A stretch of DNA of 40,818 nucleotides from assembly GCA_016929395.1 (NCBI GenBank), contig JAFGIX010000086.1:1-40818 (forward strand). Reading direction: 5' to 3'. Every line of letters starts with the position of its first letter. Positions within the stretch are counted from its first letter, which is position 1. A program made the translations under genes and the position numbers. This stretch comes from Candidatus Zymogenus saltonus (GTDB lineage Bacteria > Desulfobacterota > Zymogenia > Zymogenales > Zymogenaceae). A model generated the notes under the pieces. It saw nothing but the letters and a program-made list of their open reading frames with translations, ran no database searches and was not told the DNA's origin. Below are positions 467 to 40,818 of the stretch, piece by piece.

Positions 467-3400
467 CTACTTGTCCAGAATCTCCCTGATCTTGCCGTTC
501 AAGTCATTGAGGCGGGCGGGCTTCTGGATAAAACCGTCCCCGCCCTCCATCAGAATATCCTTCGCCTTTCCGTTCTCGGTGTAGCCGGAGGAGATCAGCA
601 CCTTGACATCCGGGTCTATCTCCTTCAATTTTCTGAACGTCTCCATGCCGCTCATTCCGGGCAAGACGTAGTCGAGGATGACCAGGTCGATCTCGTCCCG
701 CATCTCCGTGAAAAGGCCGATCCCTTCCTCACCGTTGGTCGCGGTAATCACCTTATATCCCGTATCTTTAAGGAAATCGCTCCACATATCAACCACAATC
801 GCCTCATCGTCAATGATAAGGAGGGTCTCGTCCCCGGCTGCCTTTCCGATATCCATTTCGGAATCGGCCGCCTTTGCCGCTTCGGGAATCGCGGGGAAAT
901 AGAGCTTAAAGGAGCTGCCCTCCCCGACTTCGCTGTAGACGGTGATTATCCCGGAGTGCTTCTGCATGATGCCGTATATCGTCGAGAGCCCCATTCCCGT
1001 TCCTCCCTTGTGCTCTTTCGTGCTGAAAAAGGGCTCGAAGATGCGCTCCTTTACATCCTTTGTCATGCCGATTCCGGTGTCCGTTACGGTCAGCACCACA
1101 TAATCCCCCTTCTTCGCGCCGATGTGCATCCTGACAAAATCCTCATCCAACAACTTGCTTCTGGTCTCGATAATAAGCCTCCCGCCCATCGGCATGGCGT
1201 CCTTGGAGTTGATACATAGGTTCAAGAGGCACTGCTCGAGATGTCCCCTGTCCCCCTTTATCGTCAAGAGGTCCTCCTCAAGACAGGTCTCGATCGTGAT
1301 GGACTTTTCAAATATGCCGGAGATTAACGGCAGTATCCTTTCAACCACGTCGTTCAGGTTGAGATTTGTAAACTTGTACTCCTCCCCTCTGGCGATGTTC
1401 AAGAGCTGTTTCGTGAGGTCGGACGCCCTCAGCGTTCCGTCATAGATCGTTTTCAAGGCCTTGTAGTCGGGATCGTCCTCATCCTTTTTGATAAGGAGAT
1501 ATTCCGAATAACCCATGATCCCCACGAGAATATTGTTGAAGTTATGGGCCATCCCTCCGGCCAGGGTGCCCAAGGCCTCCATCTTTTGGGTCTGGACAAG
1601 CTGGGCCTCGAGGCTCTTCTTCTCGGTCATGTCCTTTATTATCCCCTGATAGCCGATTATCTCTCCGGTCTCGTCTCTCCTCACAGACGACGTAACGAGG
1701 GTCTCTATAAAAGTCCCGTCCTTTTTTCTAAAGGTGATTTCATAGTCCGTCAAAAATCCCTCCCTGTTCAGGGCCTCTTGAATTTCTTTCCTGTAGTCGG
1801 GATCTTTGTAGATATCCTTTAAATCCATATTTAAAAGCTCATCCCGGGCATAACCAAAAAGCTTTTCGCCCGCCTGATTTATATCTTCAAATCTTCCCCC
1901 TATCGTTGAAAGATAGATCGTATCCCTGGAGGATTGGAAAAGATTGCGGTACCTTTCCTCACTCTCCTTCAAGGCCTCCTCGGCCGCCTTTCGCTCCGTT
2001 ATATCACGAATGATTATGAGAATCGCAGGCTCACCCCTATACATAATCATGCTTGCATTGAACTCTACGTCCACCCTGCGACCGTTTTTATGCTTTGCCG
2101 CCGATTCATATGTTGAAGGCACATACTTGCCGGAAATTCTGTTTCTGTAATTAGCAGAAACCTTGTCGGCCTCGTCCGGATGTACGAAATCGAAAAAATC
2201 CGTGTCAATTATTTCATTGGCATCATAACCGCCTATTTCACACACGCGTCGATTTACGTACTTGATCTTTTTTTCTTGAACAATAATAATGCCGTCATTC
2301 GCCTGCTCCACAAGTATTCGATATTTCTCTTCGCTTTCAACGAGCGCCTCTTCGGCCTTCTTCTTTTCCGTAACATCGCTTAAAAATGTGAGGGAAGCGG
2401 GTTTCCCGTCCCATGTTATCGAAATGCCTGTTCCCTCGACCCACCTTATGCTTCCATCTTTCCTTAAGAGCCTGTAGAGATTCGGTTTGAGGAAATCCTC
2501 TCCGTTAATCTCCTTGAAATATCTCGAAAGGACCTCCTCTAAATCTTCGGGGTGAATAAACTTCTCTAAGGGTATCGAGGCAAGCTCTTCTTCCGAGTAT
2601 CCCGAAATCTCTACGGTTTTTGGATTTGAAAATTTGACAAGATTGTCTTGAAGGACGAGTATGGCCTCCTTGGCGCTGTCCACCAACGTCCGATATTTGT
2701 CCTCCGATTCAATCAGCGCCCTCTCGGTCAGCACCCTGTCATTTATATTCCTGGCAACGATATTGATAGATACAACAGATCCACCCCTATCTTTCACCGG
2801 CCTTGTGATGGTGGAAAACCACTTGTAATCACCTTTTTTATCTATTGCCCTGATTTCGGCCTCGAAGGAATTCCCCTTTAAACTCTCTTTAAGGGCTTCC
2901 CTGAGAATTGAATAATCATCGGGGTGAGTAGTCGTCAAGGAGTTTTTCCCGATTATCTCGTCTCTCCGATAACCGCTCTCCCTGAGAAACGAATCGTTGA
3001 CCTGAAGAAACGCGCCCTTTAGATCGATGGTGAAGATAACATCTACGGCATTTTCGATTATATCCCTGTACTTCTCTTCGCTTCTCTTTAACGCCTCCTC
3101 CGCCAATATCCTCTTGGAGATATCTCTACAGATGCAAAAGACGACATCATCTCCCCCCCACCGTCCCCTTGTGCATTTTGCCTCTACCGGAATCGACGTC
3201 TTGTCTGTCTTTAATAAAGGTACAGCGTAGATACCGGAGTTACCTTTAAAAAGAGCGCCAGCGATCTTATCCTTATTCTGCCCCCTCCCGATAGAGAGGA
3301 GATTATTGAAATCGGTGCCTAAAAGCTCCTCGATCGGATACCCGAGCCTCCTCTCCACCGCCGGATTGACATGAACGATCTTGCCGTCATATTGATAGAT

Positions 3401-4411
3401 AAAGAGGAGGTCCTCCATAGTATCAAAAAGGGTCTGCAGGTTTTCTCTCCCCTTTTTAACCTCTTCCAGGGCTCCGGCCGCACGGAGAGCCTCGTAGCTG
3501 AAGGACGCCAGAATTTGGCCCATCTCGGAATCTTTATCATTAAAGGATGATCTGGCCTTGTTATGAAGAGTGATTATGCCTTTTATCTCATCCGTTGAAT
3601 CGTTGAGGCTAAATACGAGGAGAGAGCCGTCTTTGTATCCATTCCACCCGCTTTTCTTAAGTCCCCCCGCCTTTTCAATGTCTTCAATAAGCGTCGCCCC
3701 CCCTTCCCTCAAGGCTTTCTCCAATATCGTGCCCTTTTCAAGAGGGAGGGGAATTTTTTCCGCCGCGTGTCCGGGGTCAAGGGAATGAGCGAGGATCAGC
3801 GAATCGTCTTCAATGATATACAGGCTTCCCCCCTCTACATCCATGTTTTCCTTAAACTCCTCAAGGAGTATTCTCCCCATCTCCTTGATCTTTGAGGCGG
3901 CCGTCAGTTTTCCGGTCGACTTGACAATCGCCCTCAAACGTCTGTTCGTATCCGTTAGCTCCCTGCTTTTCTCCCTGATGGCGTGTTCCGCGGCTTCTCT
4001 TTCATTTTCGAGCCTTATCCTTTCAAAGCACCTGTCCAACGTGGCCAAAAGCTCCCGTTCCTCGAGAGGTTTTTGGAGGTAGTCATAGGCTCCCTCCTGA
4101 ATCGCCTCGATGGCCGTATCGGCGGCTTCACGGAGGACCATCATCACGCAGATCAAAGTGGGCCTTTTCCCCCTCAACCACGAGAGGAGGTCAATCCCTC
4201 TCTCCCCCCCGAGACAAACATTTACGAGAGCCACGTCCGCGTCAAAATCCTCGATTTTGTTACAGGCCTCCTCAACGCCCTTCGCCGCCTCGGTCAGGTA
4301 TCCCCGCGACTTGAGCACCTCGTTCAGGCTCTCGATAGAATCCCGGTCGTCATCTACGATAAGGATGCGACGACCGGAAGAGAAATCCTTATTACTCCCG
4401 TCAACGGCCAT
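467..4411 (-). CDS. Hybrid sensor histidine kinase, REC-GAF-PASx5-HK-REC
   Basis: A 1314-residue soluble signalling kinase with no membrane segment, so it should sense cytoplasmic signals. Order: receiver-like domain (about 15-130), short coiled coil, GAF (about 155-320), five PAS domains (about 333-945), histidine kinase core, C-terminal receiver (about 1195-1310). The phospho-acceptor His956 lies in the AGGMAHNFNN motif; the ATPase has the DTGIGM and GGTGMGLS boxes. The C-terminal receiver is complete: Asp1201-Asp1202, Asp1247 in LDYVLPG, Lys1297. The N-terminal receiver is degenerate: Asn64 replaces the phosphorylated Asp (codon AAT) and Val92 the switch Thr/Ser, though Asp20-22 and Lys114 remain. 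GGGAGGAATT precedes the ATG, about 15 bases away. It stands alone, with no partner regulator visible. Targets are unknown. Confidence 0.9.
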   Translation of the reverse strand: MAVDGSNKDFSSGRRILIVDDDRDSIESLNEVLKSRGYLTEAAKGVEEACNKIEDFDADVALVNVCLGGERGIDLLSWLRGKRPTLICVMMVLREAADTAIEAIQEGAYDYLQKPLEERELLATLDRCFERIRLENEREAAEHAIREKSRELTDTNRRLRAIVKSTGKLTAASKIKEMGRILLEEFKENMDVEGGSLYIIEDDSLILAHSLDPGHAAEKIPLPLEKGTILEKALREGGATLIEDIEKAGGLKKSGWNGYKDGSLLVFSLNDSTDEIKGIITLHNKARSSFNDKDSEMGQILASFSYEALRAAGALEEVKKGRENLQTLFDTMEDLLFIYQYDGKIVHVNPAVERRLGYPIEELLGTDFNNLLSIGRGQNKDKIAGALFKGNSGIYAVPLLKTDKTSIPVEAKCTRGRWGGDDVVFCICRDISKRILAEEALKRSEEKYRDIIENAVDVIFTIDLKGAFLQVNDSFLRESGYRRDEIIGKNSLTTTHPDDYSILREALKESLKGNSFEAEIRAIDKKGDYKWFSTITRPVKDRGGSVVSINIVARNINDRVLTERALIESEDKYRTLVDSAKEAILVLQDNLVKFSNPKTVEISGYSEEELASIPLEKFIHPEDLEEVLSRYFKEINGEDFLKPNLYRLLRKDGSIRWVEGTGISITWDGKPASLTFLSDVTEKKKAEEALVESEEKYRILVEQANDGIIIVQEKKIKYVNRRVCEIGGYDANEIIDTDFFDFVHPDEADKVSANYRNRISGKYVPSTYESAAKHKNGRRVDVEFNASMIMYRGEPAILIIIRDITERKAAEEALKESEERYRNLFQSSRDTIYLSTIGGRFEDINQAGEKLFGYARDELLNMDLKDIYKDPDYRKEIQEALNREGFLTDYEITFRKKDGTFIETLVTSSVRRDETGEIIGYQGIIKDMTEKKSLEAQLVQTQKMEALGTLAGGMAHNFNNILVGIMGYSEYLLIKKDEDDPDYKALKTIYDGTLRASDLTKQLLNIARGEEYKFTNLNLNDVVERILPLISGIFEKSITIETCLEEDLLTIKGDRGHLEQCLLNLCINSKDAMPMGGRLIIETRSKLLDEDFVRMHIGAKKGDYVVLTVTDTGIGMTKDVKERIFEPFFSTKEHKGGTGMGLSTIYGIMQKHSGIITVYSEVGEGSSFKLYFPAIPEAAKAADSEMDIGKAAGDETLLIIDDEAIVVDMWSDFLKDTGYKVITATNGEEGIGLFTEMRDEIDLVILDYVLPGMSGMETFRKLKEIDPDVKVLISSGYTENGKAKDILMEGGDGFIQKPARLNDLNGKIREILDK

Positions 4412-31811: not shown

Positions 31812-31838
31812 GAAGGGGGGCTTGATGGCCCCCCTTTT
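31812..31838. terminator. Intrinsic terminator after the M20 gene
   Basis: AAGGGGGGC and GCCCCCCTT pair around TTGATG, followed by a T run to 31838. It closes the membrane/M20 cassette and, in reverse, sits just after the convergent PilW-like gene. Confidence 0.88.
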
Positions 31839-31857
31839 TGTTACTATCCACACCCCT

Positions 31858-34800
31858 TTAAGGATTCGGGCATATCTCAAGATTGTCATATTTTGCGCCG
31901 TCGCTGTATATCCTGAAAGCCGGCCGACCGGTCTTAAATAAATCCAAGCTATCGGTCCAGGTGAAGTCCACGTTGCCGCCGTCGTTTGCGGTGGCTGCGT
32001 CCGGGCCTCCCGTATCGGTATAGGTGTAGAGGCTCCCCGTTGAGTCGTAGAGCCTTACCCGTATCGTGTTGTCATCTACGTCCAACTTCATTGTAACAAG
32101 AGTATCCTCGGGAAATGCCGGACTGCTCGTGCTGTTTGAAATGTCGACGCCGAACCTGTAGTTCCAAGAACCGTTGTAACGGGAGATCCTCAAATCCACA
32201 TCCCCGTTGTCGCCGTAATCCCCATATTCGTTTCTGAGCATCACAGTGTAGTAGTGTGTGTTGTTTTGGAGTCTTACAATGAATCCCGCCATTGTACCCC
32301 CAGATGGGGCTCTAGCATCATCATCAAAATAGATATCCGCCTTCATGCTGTAGTTGTCGTGAGTGCCTATCACGGTTCCAGTAGCGTGATCCACGCTGGT
32401 CTGCCAGTAAGGCTCCGCGGCCGGATTTTTCAATATCAACAGCTTCGTGCCACTATTATACTCCTCTGCAACCACCCACGATCCATTGAAATTCCTTATC
32501 CACCAATTTCCACCGTAAACATCCCAATTGTCAGTAGGATGAGTATTCAGGGTATAACCCTTATCCGCCTCGAAGTCGTCAATGAAGCACGCCGGGGTCG
32601 GCGGTTCAGGGTAGAGGTAGGCGATACAATTATTTGCGTCCGTCGCCATGAAGTACTCGGGGAACGGATCGCCCGTCTCTCTCGTAAAGCCCACCGTAGT
32701 TCCGGTCGAGGGGCTGCTGAACTCTCCTGCGTTTGACGGTGTTACCGTCCAGGCGACCGGGGCGATTGCCGGATAACCGGTCAGGACATCGGTTATCGTA
32801 AGCTCAACCTCCACTCCCTCAGGGAAGGTCCCGTCATCCGCCACTATGGTCAAAGGCGGACAACCGCACACCTGGAAGTTGTCGAACTTGGCTATGATGT
32901 TTTTGACGCCGAATCCGGCGGTGCCGTAGAAGAAGTTCCTGTCGTGGGCGGAATATCCCGTTATGGTGCCGAAATCGAGCTTCTGGTCGTCTATCCAGAT
33001 ATCGAAATACTGACCATCAAAGGTTCCATATATCCTGTGATAGTTGCCGTCATCGTACTGCTTCGTGAAGTAGTTCGGCGCCTCCGGCGTCACGTCGTTA
33101 CCAACCTGGTTGATAACCAATGTTACCGGGTCGGGAGACGACCAGTTGGGATTGTCTACCCTGTAAAACCGCACAAGGGGATCCCCGCTGGAGTCCTTTG
33201 TCCACACCACGAAATAACCCCTGTTGAGCACATCCATAGTGGGTGAGCCGTCAACCGCCGAAATGGTTTCCTTGCCGCCGGCCGCCCTGAATATTATGAT
33301 AACCCCCTCATCCACCGACGACGGCAGATAGTAATCTCCTACGCTTACCTCGTCGACCGGAGCGTAGCTGGGCTTATCGGGGCCTCCGATGTACTTGAAG
33401 CGGAAGTTCATCGTGTACTGATCCCATGCCATTTCGGAATTATCCTCTCCCACAACCGACTCGTCCAGATCGATCCACACAAAGGACTCGCTGTTTACGT
33501 AGCCTATCGGCGGCTGTACCGACGGGGGCAAAAACATCGTTCCGGGCGTTTCCCAGAGAGCCTTAAAAGGTACCGATCCCGAGATGAAGAACTCGTCGCA
33601 GAACTGCATCATCAGAAGCTTAAATGTATCGGCGTCCGGGACCAACACGGGAGATGTGCTCTCCGTGATGTTGGCTGTGGAAAAACCGCTCCACTCGCTG
33701 GAGTTCTCGTTGAAGAAGGGGAATCTCGCCTTGTCGTCGGTAAGGCCGTCGTCTGCGCTTGTCGAGAAGTTTTCCATTATCTTGATCCCGCCCGCACATC
33801 TATCCACAACAGTCGGGACAAAGGGGGCCGCTTCGTTGTGTATGTACAAAGTGCCGCCGGTATCCCAATATCTCATATTGATGTGCCCGGCGTTGGTTAT
33901 ATCAAGAACGCCGTCGTAATCCGTGGAGGCCCAGCCTGCGGGGAGCCCCCTTGTCAACACTTTTCCCCTGAATACGCCGGTGTTGTTTCCCGTCTCGGTT
34001 AAGGTAACATACTCCACATCCTCATACGTGGAAGTCCACTCGTACACCATAACGGTCAAATCATCCGGAAGCGCGGAGGTATCTCTACAACAGTCTCTCA
34101 CTTCGAGATAAACGGTGTCCCCGGTCCTTAAGGCGTTAGCCGATGTAAGCCTTTCGGTATAGCAGGAGTCCCGATACATAAAGAGCACCTCGTCCGGAAC
34201 CACAGGCAGGATCATATACTCTGTGGCCGAGTATGATCCATAGTCGGTGTGTACCATTATAGTGATTTCGGTGAGAGAACAACCGCTGAGAAGCTTTATC
34301 GGAATAATCGCCTTGGCCTCGGAATTGGAATAGACTTGCACCGTTATCAGGTCATAAACACCGGTGCCGGTGTTAAGAAATCTCGCGTTACTGCTGCCGC
34401 CGGTTATCGTAAACGTAACCGGGTTGTTGATTACATCATCGCAGTTGGTTGTGGGCGGGACATTGAGGATTATTCTCGCCTCTATATCGAGGTTGTCGTA
34501 TTCACAACCGTCTCTGAAAAAGCCGTCCGTCATCTCCCCACTTCCGTATGGATCGGTGTGCGGCCCCTTTGCCCTCAAAACGAGGTTGAGCCCCTCGGGG
34601 CATTCCGCGAGGCTTGCATCGATCTCCTTTTCATCAACATCGGGGGCCGTGTATTCCGTGCCGGAGGTGTCCTTGTGGGCGATAAGCTTTATCCTTTCCA
34701 CCACATCGAGGTTGGCGCATCCCGTTACAAGATACTTGGCTATGAATTTCAGGCTGTCGCTGTCCCAGGGCAGGTAGTGCGGCGGGGACAGGGAATCTTC

Positions 34801-36978
34801 TTCTTTATTTGTAAGCTCGCCGAACGTATCGGCCGAGGGATCGGCAATGTTTTCCACCTCTCCGTAAATCTCGTAATCGCGCTCCGACGATTTATGGACG
34901 GGATACCCGCCGCAGTCGAAACCCTCGACATAAACATAGGTGTCATTTCCCCTACATCCGGAATCGTCATAATTTGGCGGATCCGCGGTTATATAGAAGG
35001 GACGCAGCCCCGTCTCCAGGACAATCTCTTTGGCAACGGTCGGCACAGTTGTATCCCATCCGTCCGGCTCGGGATCGGCCAAGGGCTTGTCCTCATACTT
35101 TGTCGCATTTGCCTTTATGCCGAGGGATGTGGGATAGGTTTTGGATGTATCCATTATCTTGGGCGCCTCGTACCATATCTTGTACATGCCCGATTCATCC
35201 TCGACCTCAAGGGCTATATTAGGGTCGCCGGAATCGAAATAGCTCCTTGTCCCTCCCGACTCCATTATGAAATATTTACCGGGAACCTGATTTGATCCCA
35301 ATGTTCCACTGGTGCCGCCGTCGTAAAACTCAAATTCTATCTGGGCGCCGTCGACCTCGAAGCCGTTGCAGTCTTTGGCATAAACCTCAAAGGCCTTATA
35401 AGGCGCATCGTCACACGCGTAGGCAGAAATCACGACATCTTTGAACTCCAATGTGGCCGGAGGCCCCACAATAAAGGGAACCGTGATAGAAGAATAAACA
35501 GGGAACTCTTTATCTACTCCGTTTATATTTGCCGTGATGGTAGAGTCGGCGGATATTGTGATCGTTACGGGTTTCTTCGCCTCTCCTGTCGGCGCGTCCG
35601 GCCTAAGTTTTATTCCCGAAACCTCGCCGTTGGCGTCGGTCATCGGATTTCCCTCCCCATCGACACTTGTGACATCCGAATAGTCGAGGAGGGAAAGATT
35701 GGCGGTGGAATAGAAGTTTACCTTTCTGTTGGCGATGGGCAACCCTTCCTTATCCTTCAAGGTCGCCGTCAGCTCCACCTCGTTATCGGGACACCTCAGC
35801 TTCGGCGGAGTGGCGGATAGGTTAAGCCGTCCGTACGGATTCAGGATCAGGTTTTTCGGTGTTGCGGAGGCCGAGAGAAAGAGCCTTCGGTAATGGTCCG
35901 AATACGGAATAAATTCTCCGTATGTCGGATACTGCTTGGTGTTACAGTGCGAGATGAAGCACTCCCAGTCTGTAAGGCCGTTGCAGTCTGTGAGAAACGG
36001 CTCCTGATCGCGAAAACCTGAATCCCCGCAGGACCACCCTTTCGGCAGGCCCGACTCATAAGTAGCAACCGATCCCACCGGATATGTACCATCGTCGTTC
36101 CATTTCGGGTCCTCTTTTGAGCTCCTTATCAGGAGATCAAACTCGACACGCCTGATCCTTCCCATCTCCTCCCTCGTAAGGATATAGGGAGGTTTTGGAA
36201 CTATACGGTTTCCGTTGTCGTCGGTCGTGACCGGAAGCGGGAGGTTCTCTTCATCGTAGTATCTAATAATGAAATTCTCGACGTTGTCCGCAATGGTGTC
36301 CGGCTTGGGATTGACAATATAGGGATTTGTGGCGGCATTGTAGACATTGCTTTCATTGTGCAGCTTAAACGTGTATCTGTACAGGCTGTATGGCGGCCCG
36401 TTCAGGTATAGCTTGACCGCGTCCATCTGACCCATGGCATCATCGTCCGCGGTATCATCCAGATCGTACCCGCACAACATCACCTCGGAATCTTTGACAT
36501 TTCCGTCCCCATCCATATCGAAATACACGTCCATATAGTATTCATGGGGACCGCCCGTGGCGAGGGTGTTCAGCTCCGGGTCGTGGACGATCTCCGTCGG
36601 TGGAGTATCATCCTCCATATCGAGGTATGGCGTATTGATCGCCAGCGTAAGTATCTCGTCCGCCTGAATCACCCCGTCGTCATCTTCGTCCATAACCGCC
36701 GTAAAGTAGTGATCCGATGCGGACTCTATCTTCATGCCGTTTTTGATATTATAGCCGGAGTTCTGTACGGTCCGGGTGAGGTATTCCATTGCAAAATGCC
36801 CGGTGTTTTCCACCTCCAAGAGGGCCCCTTCGGTCACATAGCTTCTCTTCTGGGCGATGAACACCTCGAAGACCGCCGCCATGATTATCATCGATATCAG
36901 GACGGTAATCAGTATCTCGACCAGAGTGAAGCCCTCTTTCGACCCGAAACATTTAATCAGTTTTCTTATCTTTTCCAT
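31858..36978 (-). CDS. Giant PilW-like minor pilin with adhesin-like extension
   Basis: A 1706-residue protein whose start is a prepilin leader: cleavage after Gly16, then FTLVEILITVLISMIIMAAVF, with Glu21 at mature position +5. Ordinary PilW proteins have about 200-400 residues. Residues 17-370 are PilW-like and carry two canonical EF-hand loops (97-108 and 154-165). From 370 on come Ig-like modules (about 385-505), three modules with a cysteine pair ending in a DC motif (Cys522/537, 675/689, 939/963), then two lectin-like beta-sandwiches (about 1065-1370 and 1465-1706), the last with WDVYGGNWWIRN and PAFRIYSDGAKYDNLEIC. This suggests a surface adhesin at a pilus tip. GGGGGATAAA precedes the ATG. 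It is last in the pilin operon. Confidence 0.8.
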   Translation of the reverse strand: MEKIRKLIKCFGSKEGFTLVEILITVLISMIIMAAVFEVFIAQKRSYVTEGALLEVENTGHFAMEYLTRTVQNSGYNIKNGMKIESASDHYFTAVMDEDDDGVIQADEILTLAINTPYLDMEDDTPPTEIVHDPELNTLATGGPHEYYMDVYFDMDGDGNVKDSEVMLCGYDLDDTADDDAMGQMDAVKLYLNGPPYSLYRYTFKLHNESNVYNAATNPYIVNPKPDTIADNVENFIIRYYDEENLPLPVTTDDNGNRIVPKPPYILTREEMGRIRRVEFDLLIRSSKEDPKWNDDGTYPVGSVATYESGLPKGWSCGDSGFRDQEPFLTDCNGLTDWECFISHCNTKQYPTYGEFIPYSDHYRRLFLSASATPKNLILNPYGRLNLSATPPKLRCPDNEVELTATLKDKEGLPIANRKVNFYSTANLSLLDYSDVTSVDGEGNPMTDANGEVSGIKLRPDAPTGEAKKPVTITISADSTITANINGVDKEFPVYSSITVPFIVGPPATLEFKDVVISAYACDDAPYKAFEVYAKDCNGFEVDGAQIEFEFYDGGTSGTLGSNQVPGKYFIMESGGTRSYFDSGDPNIALEVEDESGMYKIWYEAPKIMDTSKTYPTSLGIKANATKYEDKPLADPEPDGWDTTVPTVAKEIVLETGLRPFYITADPPNYDDSGCRGNDTYVYVEGFDCGGYPVHKSSERDYEIYGEVENIADPSADTFGELTNKEEDSLSPPHYLPWDSDSLKFIAKYLVTGCANLDVVERIKLIAHKDTSGTEYTAPDVDEKEIDASLAECPEGLNLVLRAKGPHTDPYGSGEMTDGFFRDGCEYDNLDIEARIILNVPPTTNCDDVINNPVTFTITGGSSNARFLNTGTGVYDLITVQVYSNSEAKAIIPIKLLSGCSLTEITIMVHTDYGSYSATEYMILPVVPDEVLFMYRDSCYTERLTSANALRTGDTVYLEVRDCCRDTSALPDDLTVMVYEWTSTYEDVEYVTLTETGNNTGVFRGKVLTRGLPAGWASTDYDGVLDITNAGHINMRYWDTGGTLYIHNEAAPFVPTVVDRCAGGIKIMENFSTSADDGLTDDKARFPFFNENSSEWSGFSTANITESTSPVLVPDADTFKLLMMQFCDEFFISGSVPFKALWETPGTMFLPPSVQPPIGYVNSESFVWIDLDESVVGEDNSEMAWDQYTMNFRFKYIGGPDKPSYAPVDEVSVGDYYLPSSVDEGVIIIFRAAGGKETISAVDGSPTMDVLNRGYFVVWTKDSSGDPLVRFYRVDNPNWSSPDPVTLVINQVGNDVTPEAPNYFTKQYDDGNYHRIYGTFDGQYFDIWIDDQKLDFGTITGYSAHDRNFFYGTAGFGVKNIIAKFDNFQVCGCPPLTIVADDGTFPEGVEVELTITDVLTGYPAIAPVAWTVTPSNAGEFSSPSTGTTVGFTRETGDPFPEYFMATDANNCIAYLYPEPPTPACFIDDFEADKGYTLNTHPTDNWDVYGGNWWIRNFNGSWVVAEEYNSGTKLLILKNPAAEPYWQTSVDHATGTVIGTHDNYSMKADIYFDDDARAPSGGTMAGFIVRLQNNTHYYTVMLRNEYGDYGDNGDVDLRISRYNGSWNYRFGVDISNSTSSPAFPEDTLVTMKLDVDDNTIRVRLYDSTGSLYTYTDTGGPDAATANDGGNVDFTWTDSLDLFKTGRPAFRIYSDGAKYDNLEICPNP

Positions 36979-37010: not shown

Positions 37011-39380
37011 TCAATCTTTCGGGCTCTGTATGAATTTTTCGAGGTACTCCTCTCCCTCGAGCCATCCCACCCGCTCTACGCCGTACGACGACGGGCAGTA
37101 GGGGGGCCAGTATGTGGGATCCAGAAAACCGGGGTCCCATCCGTAGAACCTGTTCGGTGGACTATATTGACACAGCGCGCAGGTGCCACAGCCGCAATTG
37201 TCTTCAAGACATGGATTGTCACAATTGAACTGACCCGGGGCCTGTCTCCTGTCCCAGAGATTAATCAAACATCCTTTAATATACTCCCCCTTGCCGTCCC
37301 AATCTTCCAGCTTGGTAATGAAGTTGTGCAGACCGGCTGAAAAGTAAGTCGACCCCGCACCCGTCCCTCCCCGGACGGAATAGATGTCGAGGTCATCCCT
37401 CCCCGAGAAGAAGGCTAAATTGTAATAGGTTGTTTCCGCCTTGCTCATTCTGAGGGTGTCGTTTGCGGGGGGCCTTCCGCCGATTTGTCCCCTGAATCCC
37501 CCGGTAAAGCTATTGGAATAATCCGTACCGCCCACGTATGCGTCGTCCCAGCTGTTGGAGAGCACGGTTACCAGGTCCCCGATAACCGCAAAACCCTTCG
37601 TCTCTGTGGTGTTTGTGTCTCCCTGGATATAGACGGGATTATCTGAAACAAATGTCGTGGGACAAATAAGCTTGGTGGTCTTCCATATCTTGATGCCCTG
37701 CATCACTTGTGTATGTCTATTGGAGTAGTACGGACTTGGCGGGCCGGTCGTTGCATCATAGGACGCCCCCCATGCAGTGGAGGAAGTCTCAGCTACCGTG
37801 GGAGTTCTTGAAACGTATATGAGGAGTTTTGTCGGGTCGCCGGTATTTTTGTCGATGAGAAAATCTTCAACGGACTGGTCATTCTTGTCGCCGTCATACT
37901 GCTCGTCGAGGTAGTGCTCGTAAAACCACTCCTCCAGCCTCTCTAGATTCACCGTTGTGAGGGCAACGCCGTTCATGTTATTACGCTGGTCGTTCTTCTC
38001 AAGGTAAACGGGATAGTAATTTCCATCAGGCTGGGATGTGTTCATATCGCTGCTCGGGAACTGATATGTCACCCCCCCGAGGGGATTTGCAACGGTCTCC
38101 GGAGAAAAGACGATTATCCCGTCCCCCACATCGCCCGCGGTATCGACGTTGAACCCATCGCCCGCCATAAAGACCGCCTCCGTAACGTCTTCAACCTTTA
38201 CGCCGTCCGTGTAGCTTGGGGAGTCGAAGGCGAAGTCCTTGGTCGCCGCATAGATATGGAGTGTTCCGGTGACGTCGGCCGTTGAGGTTGGGGGCCAGTT
38301 GTTAATGACGGGGTATTCGATGACGATGGCAATGCCGAAGTATTCGCTTCTGGTCGGCCCTTTTGCCCTGTTCTCGTAAAACGATTCCCTGAAAAGGGCG
38401 TTAAAGTGGATGGTGGGGGACTTGGGAACTCCCACCATCACGTATGTACAGTCGTTTTCGTCCGTAAAGCGATCCATCTGGGCTTCGGCGTTGGTTGAAT
38501 CGATATCGACATTGATCTGAACGTAGTCGCAGTCGTTTGTCCTGTTCCCAAAGCCGTCGTAGGTGGCGAGACACTGGTTTTCGGTCCCGATGATATCGAG
38601 ATCGTGGATCTTGACCCTCATGCCGTTGCCCCTGTGGCCCTGGTTGAAAATCGTATTCCACTTTATCGTTCCCGCAGCGGTAATGAAGTGGGGAACCCTT
38701 TCGCTACCCGGTTGTGTATAGTTTTTGATCCAGATCATGTCTGAAGGGCCGAACCATATATTCCCGTTTGTATGCACTCTGCCCCAGGAGTTCATGACAG
38801 GGCCGTTGTGCCAGGCAATGTCGTCATCGAAGAAGGCGAAGTACTGCACCAGAGGTGTTTCGAGAATCCTTATCTGTCTTTTTAGATATTCCCTCCCGGA
38901 CTTGTTCGAGGGCTCCGCAACGACTTCCACCGCGTATGGATAGGCGAAGTGGATAATCTCCTGGCACGATGTATACGTCCTGTAGATGAATCGGTTCTTC
39001 TGGGGATCCGGGTTTTCCGGGATGATCCTGTATTTCACCTTCGAACCGCTGCAGTCGTCAAAGAGGTCCATGAAGGCATAGCTGTGCTTTGTAACGTTGT
39101 CCTCTTTATAGGTCGTTCTCTCGGTGCCGGAAAAGGGTTCGAGCTGGGTAATGATCTCATCGTGGGTGATCAGCATGGCGGCCTCGAGACCGGCCTCGGC
39201 GCAGTTCATCGTATCCCGATTTTTTTCGTAATTACTCACAATAGAGGTCTCGAGGGTGACGTTCGTGACGTAGCCTACGGCTATAACCGTAAGCGTCATC
39301 ATAATAACCAACGAGAGCATCAATATGTAACCCTTATTGGATTTTATGATCTTATTGAATTTCCCATTTTTTGCCGTCAT
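37011..39380 (-). CDS. PilX-like minor pilin assembly protein, 789 residues
   Basis: Residues 14-60 match the PilX N-terminus: NKGYILMLSLVIMMTLTVIAVGYV as the membrane segment, then the ETSIVSNYEKNRDTMNCAEAGLEAA helix typical of the family. The remaining 700 residues are a large beta-rich periplasmic or surface region, longer than usual PilX. The C-terminus has a cysteine cluster: Cys720, 724, 729, 731, 734, 737, and Cys762 beyond it. I chose the ATG at 39378-39380 because GGAGGAGGGATAAA precedes it; the frame opens 16 codons earlier at a poorer site. The PilW-like gene starts 32 bases downstream, and both have the same GGGATAAAATG start region. The order matches PilV-PilX-PilW minor pilin operons. 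Confidence 0.8.
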   Translation of the reverse strand: MTAKNGKFNKIIKSNKGYILMLSLVIMMTLTVIAVGYVTNVTLETSIVSNYEKNRDTMNCAEAGLEAAMLITHDEIITQLEPFSGTERTTYKEDNVTKHSYAFMDLFDDCSGSKVKYRIIPENPDPQKNRFIYRTYTSCQEIIHFAYPYAVEVVAEPSNKSGREYLKRQIRILETPLVQYFAFFDDDIAWHNGPVMNSWGRVHTNGNIWFGPSDMIWIKNYTQPGSERVPHFITAAGTIKWNTIFNQGHRGNGMRVKIHDLDIIGTENQCLATYDGFGNRTNDCDYVQINVDIDSTNAEAQMDRFTDENDCTYVMVGVPKSPTIHFNALFRESFYENRAKGPTRSEYFGIAIVIEYPVINNWPPTSTADVTGTLHIYAATKDFAFDSPSYTDGVKVEDVTEAVFMAGDGFNVDTAGDVGDGIIVFSPETVANPLGGVTYQFPSSDMNTSQPDGNYYPVYLEKNDQRNNMNGVALTTVNLERLEEWFYEHYLDEQYDGDKNDQSVEDFLIDKNTGDPTKLLIYVSRTPTVAETSSTAWGASYDATTGPPSPYYSNRHTQVMQGIKIWKTTKLICPTTFVSDNPVYIQGDTNTTETKGFAVIGDLVTVLSNSWDDAYVGGTDYSNSFTGGFRGQIGGRPPANDTLRMSKAETTYYNLAFFSGRDDLDIYSVRGGTGAGSTYFSAGLHNFITKLEDWDGKGEYIKGCLINLWDRRQAPGQFNCDNPCLEDNCGCGTCALCQYSPPNRFYGWDPGFLDPTYWPPYCPSSYGVERVGWLEGEEYLEKFIQSPKD

Positions 39381-39484
39381 TTTATCCCTCCTCCTCTCTC
39401 TTATTCGTGAAAACATTTTACGTATCATGACTCAACCCCTCTTAAAAACTTTTTTAAAACCAACGACAAACAAACCGCTTATTT

Positions 39485-39534
39485 TCAATTAATCCCCTTT
39501 GCCCCATCTTCAATTAATCCTCTTTGACCCATCT
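39485..39534. repeat. Tandem 25-bp repeat, two copies
   Basis: Two adjoining 25-base units (39485-39509 and 39510-39534) begin TCAATTAATCC and end CCCATCT, with two mismatches. They lie between the PilX-like and PilV-like genes, at the edge of the C-rich tract. Confidence 0.8.
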
Positions 39535-39790
39535 TTCCCCAACTACTCCCTCCCAACCAATAATCAACCCCCCCATACAACCCCCACCCCCCGCTCATCA
39601 AATCCCCATCTCCCCACCTTCATTTCCCCATCTCCTCCTCGTCTCCTCCCGTCCCCCCTAACCACCCTCCCATCATTCCCCCCATTTCCCCCGCCCCCCC
39701 GATATCCCCCATCTCTCCCCAATTATCCCCCCCTCATCATCTCCCATTCCCCCCTCCCCCCCTTCATCTGACCAACCCCCGCCTTCCCTT
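39535..39790. repeat. Extreme C-rich/G-poor tract between the pilV- and pilX-like genes
   Basis: Over about 250 bases the plus strand has only about seven G, and many runs of four to seven C. In the direction of pilin transcription this is G-rich with A/T spacers, with GGGGAGATGGGG as the complement of 39604-39615 and a looser copy at 39707-39720. Many G runs could give quadruplexes. Open frames here are low-complexity and not genes. Confidence 0.75.
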
Positions 39791-39863
39791 TTAAACGCCG
39801 CTCATCTCTGATTATCTTGGATCCTCTGATTGCCCCGAAGTTTTTATCATTTTTACGGCCCTT

Positions 39864-40682
39864 TTACATGGAGCTTCTCACTATCAGGGTCTCAAATTCA
39901 ATGTTTCTTTCTCTTTTCGTCATATCCGTAAAGGTACACTCGACGGTCACTTTTGCGACATCGGCCGCTGTTGTGTCGGTAACGTCTGTCGCAAGGGTAA
40001 CGTGAGACAATGTCCTCTTTGAGCCACTGCCGGCCACTTCGAGGAGGGCTATAGGCTCGATCATTGTTCTACGTTTAATAATCCATCCCCATTTTCTCTT
40101 TTCTGCGTTTGACATTGCGTTAAACCGGTCGTATGTTTTCACTTCGAGGGTATTCATGTTAACATATTCCAGCGAGGACCATATCCCATCGCCGGCGTTC
40201 TCGTCCCCATGATTTTCGTTTCCGTCATCGTACATAATCAACGCTTCATCCATACGTCTTTGATAGTCATCCGCGGTTATGTTGGCTGAGGCCAGTTTTG
40301 CATTCAGGTCATTGGTTATTGCGGTAAGTCCCGCGGCTCCGGAGAGGACTCCTGGCAGGGCAAATCCTCCTATTGTGCCGTAGTTGGGATCTCTTGAGAG
40401 GATGTAGCTAAAATTAAGGACGGTGCTGTATCTTATATCCACCTCTTTTGTTGCGACTTTTCTCAACTCCTCCATTTTGGCGTGTGCGAGGGTAACGGAG
40501 TATTCTATCTGTTTGTTGGTAACTCTGGTTCGGGTTGAGTATACCAGCATTGCGCCCACGGCCATAATGCCGACCGAGAATATGGCAAGGGCGATCATTG
40601 TTTCTATCAGGGTAAATCCGTTTTTTCTTGAGCGAGGCTTGCCGAAGATATTGAAGAATTCCGCAATTTTTTGTAATTTCAT
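39864..40682 (-). CDS. pilV: PilV-like minor pilin
   Basis: A 272-residue type IV prepilin of the PilV class. The leader KNG is cut after Gly22, and the mature protein starts FTLIETMIALAIFSVGIMAVGAML, with Glu27 at mature position +5. The middle has a helical stretch LAHAKMEELRKVATKE typical of PilV. The C-terminal half is a beta-rich pilin head (LLEVAGSG, VTVECTFTDM), with a single cysteine. AAGGAATATTAGG precedes the ATG. It is the first complete gene of the pilin operon, and the distance to the PilX-like gene (483 bases) is unusually long, filled by repeats and the C-rich tract. Confidence 0.85.
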   Translation of the reverse strand: MKLQKIAEFFNIFGKPRSRKNGFTLIETMIALAIFSVGIMAVGAMLVYSTRTRVTNKQIEYSVTLAHAKMEELRKVATKEVDIRYSTVLNFSYILSRDPNYGTIGGFALPGVLSGAAGLTAITNDLNAKLASANITADDYQRRMDEALIMYDDGNENHGDENAGDGIWSSLEYVNMNTLEVKTYDRFNAMSNAEKRKWGWIIKRRTMIEPIALLEVAGSGSKRTLSHVTLATDVTDTTAADVAKVTVECTFTDMTKRERNIEFETLIVRSSM

Positions 40683-40707: not shown

Positions 40708-40818
40708 TAGCAGTATTCCCCATTACTTTTTCGTCCATGGGCACTTACCGTTTTTGTTCTTTTCTTTGTCGAAGAACCATATAATTGGTTTCCCCGTCAC
40801 CTTTTCGAGGGATACCGC
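40708..40818 (-). CDS. C-terminal end of a gene entering from the right edge
   Basis: The frame ending at TAA 40708-40710 is open to the edge and reads KPIIWFFDKEKNKNGKCHGRKSN in part, ending EYC. It stops 25 bases before the PilV-like start, a usual operon spacing. Another frame is open to 40745. In such operons this place is often held by a FimT/GspH-like pseudopilin, but the visible 36 residues do not prove it. Confidence 0.3.

Follow-up and report, generated by a model that had tools for sequence, protein, structure and literature searches.

Modular type IV pilins have been defined and surveyed, with more than 1200 proteins in 264 architectures, and the extreme example cited has 860 residues (PMC8179133). 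In Streptococcus sanguinis, PilC consists of a pilin module followed by Ig-like and ConA-like lectin modules, and it binds glycans (PMC9934059). PilC and PilB are displayed on the pilus of this organism (PMC9934059, PMC8179133), whose minor-pilin set is without PilY1. Thermus ComZ and CofB of ETEC are large minor pilins that likewise carry a large extra module and for which a tip location has been proposed (PMC8179133), although their modules, a beta-solenoid in ComZ and a beta-repeat plus beta-sandwich in CofB, differ from the Ig-plus-ConA plan. More generally, the H, I, J and K pilins form a tip complex in which the cap is the subunit that lacks Glu5 (PMC10191384). Pilus extension in Myxococcus xanthus requires PilY1, and fusing sfGFP to PilW jams the machine (PMC7541494), so that accommodating a bulky J subunit is no trivial matter.

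We identified a gene in Candidatus Zymogenus saltonus that encodes a very long PilW-like pilin, called giant PilW below. The protein is probably a modular pilin that displays an adhesin at the pilus tip in place of PilY1. It follows a principle that has already been described, in a modular pilin with Ig-like and lectin modules (PMC9934059). In a literature search, no paper naming Candidatus Zymogenus or Zymogenia was found. The stretch of DNA analysed, referred to as the window, comprises bases 1-40818 of a 114163-base contig in a genome of 3.76 Mb that is 99.6% complete.

The gene occupies positions 31858..36978 of the window on the minus strand (stop codon 31858-31860), and the parts of the gene and the other genes of its operon given below are on the same strand. 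It consists of 1706 codons, begins with ATG, and has no internal stop or frameshift. Orthologues of 1708 and 1680 aa, each a single open reading frame, are present in two other genera of Candidatus Zymogenaceae and align with giant PilW end to end at 49% and 45% identity (E = 0 over the full length). In this comparison 19 of its 26 cysteines are invariant. The end-to-end alignment with single-frame orthologues excludes a fusion artefact, a frameshift or two separate genes, and the original prediction of one 1706-residue protein therefore stands. No match was obtained in G001, the family's fourth genome, which is 88% complete and in 550 contigs, and no tandem DNA repeats were found in the gene. 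Most pilins of the phylum that the orthologue search matched are encoded by open frames of ~120-380 aa. Giant PilW is ~4.5-8 times longer than most of them, in agreement with an earlier estimate of four or more times the usual length of PilW.

The predicted N-terminus of the protein reads MEKIRKLIKCFGSKEGFTLVEILITVLIS. It contains a class III leader peptide (residues 1-16, 36931..36978), MEKIRKLIKCFGSKEG, which is followed after the predicted cleavage site by FTLVE and thus has Gly16, Phe17 and Glu21. That this is a genuine prepilin leader, as had been proposed from Gly16/Phe17 and Glu21, is borne out by an alignment of 12 giant PilW homologues from four families in which G16, T18 and E21 are invariant. 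The N_methyl Pfam model scores 20.9 bits in the window protein, 0.3 below the cut-off of 21.2, and the orthologues and most other giant PilWs exceed the cut-off. An AF2 model of residues 1-930, built from a 12-sequence alignment (mean pLDDT 65), begins with a 54-residue helix at residues 19-72. We assign residues 17-72 (36763..36930) to the pilin helix alpha-1, with E21 as Glu5 of the mature protein. The leader with Gly-1, Glu+5 and a hydrophobic alpha-1 is that of a modular type IV pilin.

Residues ~84-377 are modelled as a mostly beta head, and residues 1-377 together make up a PilW-type pilin module. Its head (residues 73-377, 35848..36762) is 58-61% identical between genera. The PilW family PF16074 does not match the window protein, and it matches the homologous region of three other giant PilWs at sub-threshold level (E 3e-5 to 2e-3). 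The head also contains two EF-hand-like loops of 12 residues each. The first, DEDDDGVIQADE, lies at residues 97-108 (36655..36690) and is kept in the two orthologues, while the second, DMDGDGNVKDSE, at residues 154-165 (36484..36519), is also found in members of f1, f21 and f45, three of the four families. At a guess, these loops might bind calcium. A calcium site in the pilin head would recall the calcium binding reported for PilY1.

The giant pilW gene is the last of a minor-pilin operon whose genes lie on the same strand in the order fimT/gspH, pilV, large pilX and giant pilW, an H-I-K-J set. An NtrC-type regulator is encoded upstream of the fimT/gspH-like gene. Only the 3' end of the latter is in the window (40723..40818, on to contig position 41442; H subunit, 239 aa). 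It is followed by a PilV-like minor pilin of 272 aa (39864..40682; I subunit) and by a large PilX of 805 aa (37011..39428; K subunit), which carries PilX_N and is separated from giant pilW by 32 bases. Both orthologues of giant PilW occupy the same operon, and the position next to fimT/fimU, pilV and pilX genes is that of PilW, the J subunit. Large PilX has no Glu5, as expected for a capping subunit (PMC10191384). The operon neighbours, PilX_N, the K subunit without Glu5 and the PilW-type head are all shared with PilW and PilX of Pseudomonas and Myxococcus, whereas the length of PilW, the 805 residues of PilX and the absence of pilY1 from the operon are not. The original prediction recognized the modular adhesin-type pilin but overlooked this enlarged partner, which always accompanies giant PilW. 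A hairpin of the G6/C6 type followed by a T run (31815..31842), read from the sequence between convergent genes, is likely the terminator of the operon. The gap between pilV and pilX (39429-39863) is 435 bases long, C-rich and of low complexity, and contains a 25-base unit twice (39484-39535).

Behind the pilin module, residues 380-930 (34189..35841) are predicted to form a stalk of about four Ig-like domains of the invasin/intimin type. At the sequence level the Ig-like domains claimed earlier are visible as a weak Big_1 Pfam match below the cut-off, at residues 400-442, and Big_1 is weakly detected in the first Ig-like domain of the window protein and of most homologues. They are also supported at the fold level. 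VIA matches of the modelled stalk include invasin (1cwv, Z 11.5), intimin (6tpl, Z 11.2, and another at 10.5) and FdeC (Z 10.2). Alignments of single domains have an rmsd of 2.7-3.0 A, and those of multiple domains have a high rmsd, presumably because the interdomain angles differ. The model thus supports a resemblance to the tandem Ig-like, Big_1-type adhesive rods of invasin and intimin, which are the best structural matches of this region. Invasin and intimin are anchored by an outer-membrane barrel, whereas the carrier here is a pilin.

The stalk is followed by three further modules. The first (residues 931-1056, 33811..34188) is beta-rich in the AF2 model and contains the motif TETGxxTGxFRG; no Pfam family was matched by this module in giant PilW. 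In the search of the phylum with the mature region, matches to it fall at positions ~870-970 of the search model. The motif-bearing beta module (residues ~950-1050, window ~33830-34130) recurs in very large proteins of the phylum, of ~1500-3300 aa. The second module (residues 1057-1375, 32854..33810) is mostly modelled with pLDDT below 50 and ends in KFDNFQVCG, as does the terminal domain. An internal duplication of these two was considered but is not claimed, as only 27 columns at their ends align (hhalign E 0.0015, probability 17%). The third (residues 1376-1459, 32602..32853) is a small beta domain, probably Ig-like, and with pLDDT up to 80 it is the best-modelled part of residues 915-1706.

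The last 247 residues (1460-1706, 31861..32601) are predicted, with modest model confidence, to adopt a ConA-like lectin-type fold. The AF2 model of residues 915-1706 was built from three sequences and has a mean pLDDT of 42, with values of ~30-74 by block in the lectin-type domain. In it, residues 1460-1706 form the two-sheet jelly-roll sandwich of the ConA-like lectin/glucanase superfamily. VIA matches are legume lectins, CBM66, galectin-8 and C-terminal modules of GH32 at Z 11-12, with an rmsd of 3-4 A over 135-180 residues, and Foldseek finds legume lectins at E ~1e-4 to 1e-3. We disregarded the GH43 entries at the top of the Foldseek list, which have an rmsd of ~26 A. No Pfam lectin family reached its cut-off, either in giant PilW as a whole or in separate scans of the end domains, and a sequence profile of the C-terminal part gave only non-significant matches in the PDB (CBM66, E 0.27; galectin, E 0.48). 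The G002 orthologue has a 3keto-disac_hyd match (E 1.3e-5, below the cut-off), which did not recur in the isolated end domain and was not used as evidence. The lectin fold sought at the C-terminus is therefore seen at the level of predicted structure, with low to modest model confidence, and such a fold is not in itself proof that the domain binds sugar.

The predicted protein is thus a pilin head followed by domains that are not specific to pilus biology, an Ig-like stalk and a ConA-like end. Among the described systems it is closest to S. sanguinis PilC, in which a pilin module also precedes an Ig-like fold and a ConA-like lectin. However, S. sanguinis is monoderm and its PilC has ~53 kDa and one Ig module, whereas the present organism is diderm with the secretin PilQ, and giant PilW exceeds PilC more than threefold in mass. 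Moreover, the carrier here is a PilW/J-type pilin within a full H-I-J-K set, with an extension of ~1300 residues, several Ig-like domains and an enlarged K partner.

When 395 genomes of the phylum were searched with the mature region, the pilin-plus-Ig part also turned up in ten others, from families f21, f45 and f88, where giant PilW has ~1600-2100 residues wherever the gene is complete. Four families have the operon of fimT, pilV, large pilX and giant pilW, and the large PilX proteins are homologous between them. Among the 395 genomes, those with giant PilW and those with full-length large PilX are the same 13. A search with nine large PilX sequences gave full-length matches in exactly this set and a partial match in another f45 genome. 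Giant PilW and large PilX are therefore co-inherited. The distal modules of giant PilW vary by family and include the ConA-like domain, Big_2 repeats and an H-type lectin domain (H_lectin), the last near the end of a distant homologue in one f21 member. Profile comparison detected no homology between the end domains of families f1 and f45.

PilY1 (PF05567) was not detected by profile search in the genome itself or in the family's three other genomes. Because the PF05567 model matched none of 14 control genomes, we calibrated this absence on the phylum instead, where 72 of the 148 genomes sampled were positive in the same search. The absence of pilY1 that the original prediction had asked about is accordingly found at the level of this model, although a divergent PilY1 could be missed by it. 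None of the 13 giant-PilW genomes gave a match, with G013 as positive control in the same run. Among sampled genomes with PilO, PilY1 is present in 64 of the 108 without giant PilW and in none of the six with it (Fisher p 0.006), or none of seven if G002, in which PilO was not found, is counted (p 0.003). Since the 13 giant-PilW genomes come from just four families, the p-value overstates independence. The association between giant PilW and the absence of PilY1 is suggestive. Giant PilW is not itself a member of the PilY1/PilC family, as it lacks the PF05567 beta-propeller. It resembles that tip adhesin in being large and modular, with a variable adhesive part expected at the tip together with FimU/FimT, PilV, PilW and PilX. 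However, PilY1 is a non-pilin with a PF05567 beta-propeller, whereas giant PilW is a pilin.

The genome encodes a complete type IVa pilus machine (PilA, B, C, D, M, N, O, P, Q and T). PilB, PilT and PilC form one cluster with a sensor kinase, PilM-N-O-P-Q form another, and a PilA-type pilin adjoins an NtrC-type regulator. A second PilT-type ATPase and PilD are also encoded. With a complete machine and PilT-type ATPases, the organism likely makes a retractable type IVa pilus. A 1314-aa hybrid histidine kinase with five PAS stretches, a GAF domain and two receiver domains is also encoded in the window (467-4411), and other very large sensor kinases are present in the same genome (L052).

We infer the location of giant PilW at the tip from the H-I-J-K operon only. 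In the proposed mechanism, prepilin peptidase would remove the 16-residue leader, and the PilW-type (J) module would join FimT/GspH (H), PilV (I) and the large PilX without Glu5 (K) in the type IVa tip or priming complex. The other 1300 residues would form a rod that extends from the tip and consists of the Ig-like stalk, the further beta modules and the ConA-like end, and this end would bind a glycan carried by neighbouring cells or by a surface. Displayed in this way, the rod would provide the adhesion for which PilY1 serves elsewhere and would thereby functionally replace PilY1, and large PilX would perhaps take over capping and priming. By analogy with the jamming of the M. xanthus machine, tolerance of giant PilW may need a matching large PilX.

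The extension could instead be a structural or mechanical device, with giant PilW and large PilX priming and capping the pilus and the lectin-type fold only packing on the partner or on the cell's own polysaccharide. PilY1 itself is needed for extension in M. xanthus (PMC7541494), the two large genes always co-occur, and large PilX is conserved along its full length across families (25-59% identity), more than distal PilW. We nevertheless consider this unlikely, as the distal modules of PilW are not only variable between families but also the fastest-evolving, a pattern more in keeping with ligand contact than with a fixed scaffold. Compared between genera, the pilin module has an identity of 0.58-0.61, the first Ig domain of 0.51-0.55, the remaining stalk of 0.34-0.40 and the modules after it of 0.45-0.52, and the value falls to 0.23-0.30, with many gaps, in the C-terminal sandwich, the fastest-evolving module. 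A conserved base and a fast-evolving end fit what is expected of a ligand-facing tip.

A further reading, quite improbable, is that the operon belongs not to an adhesive pilus but to a secretion-type type 4 filament that exports polysaccharide or protein, comparable to the hps locus of cyanobacteria with HpsA and the pseudopilins HpsB-D. PilX does resemble HpsA (E 6.7e-10) and PilV HpsB (E 2.5e-7), and a second, GspE-like ATPase is encoded on contig 58. However, the scores for HpsA, HpsB and HpsC (37, 31 and 13 bits) are far under the equivalog cut-offs of 400, 150 and 200, no polysaccharide gene cluster adjoins the operon, and the genome has one complete type IVa machine with PilT-type retraction ATPases and a single PilO. 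Export alone would also leave the Ig-plus-lectin rod without a reason. That giant PilW acts outside the pilus, anchored in the membrane by its helix or cleaved and shed as a plain surface or secreted lectin, might be argued from a size that is extreme for export through PilQ and from the indirect nature of the evidence for pilus incorporation, but it is highly improbable, as a mere membrane anchor would not keep a leader and Glu5 that are invariant in four families or a gene strictly linked to those of the H, I and K pilins.

A pilin-borne tip adhesin that stands in for PilY1 thus remains the preferred reading, and the predicted ConA-like end, the predicted invasin-like stalk and the lack of a detectable pilY1 partly support the earlier proposal of an alternative to the PilY1-type tip adhesin. 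A broader proposal is possible, though we lean slightly against it: these bacteria may have a distinct, PilY1-independent diderm type IVa tip, in which a co-inherited giant modular PilW (an adhesive rod with exchangeable lectin-type ends) and large PilX (a cap and primer) replace both functions of PilY1. In M. xanthus the start of a pilus requires both the minor pilins and PilY1, which caps the tip. With a full machine, PilT-type ATPases, enlarged PilW and PilX and no detectable PilY1, the present lineage offers a natural test of which of the priming, capping and adhesive roles of PilY1 can be separated. The modular-pilin principle, demonstrated in a monoderm, would here be carried to very long PilW-borne rods in secretin-bearing bacteria, with end domains that differ between families.

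Further large PilW-like pilins are encoded in these genomes. Each of the three genera has a second minor-pilin cluster (L022:13629-20000, on into L023; L024:12700-19244; L028:7898-13835) that encodes an NtrC regulator, FimT, PilV, a PilW-like pilin of 1383-1395 aa that has fibronectin type III domains, and a PilX_N-type protein of ~450-477 aa. In G003 this cluster is near the first. Members of families f88 and f21 have a second large PilW-like pilin shortly downstream of giant PilW, of 1319 aa and more than 1649 aa (L094:13659-17615 and L095:15055-19995).
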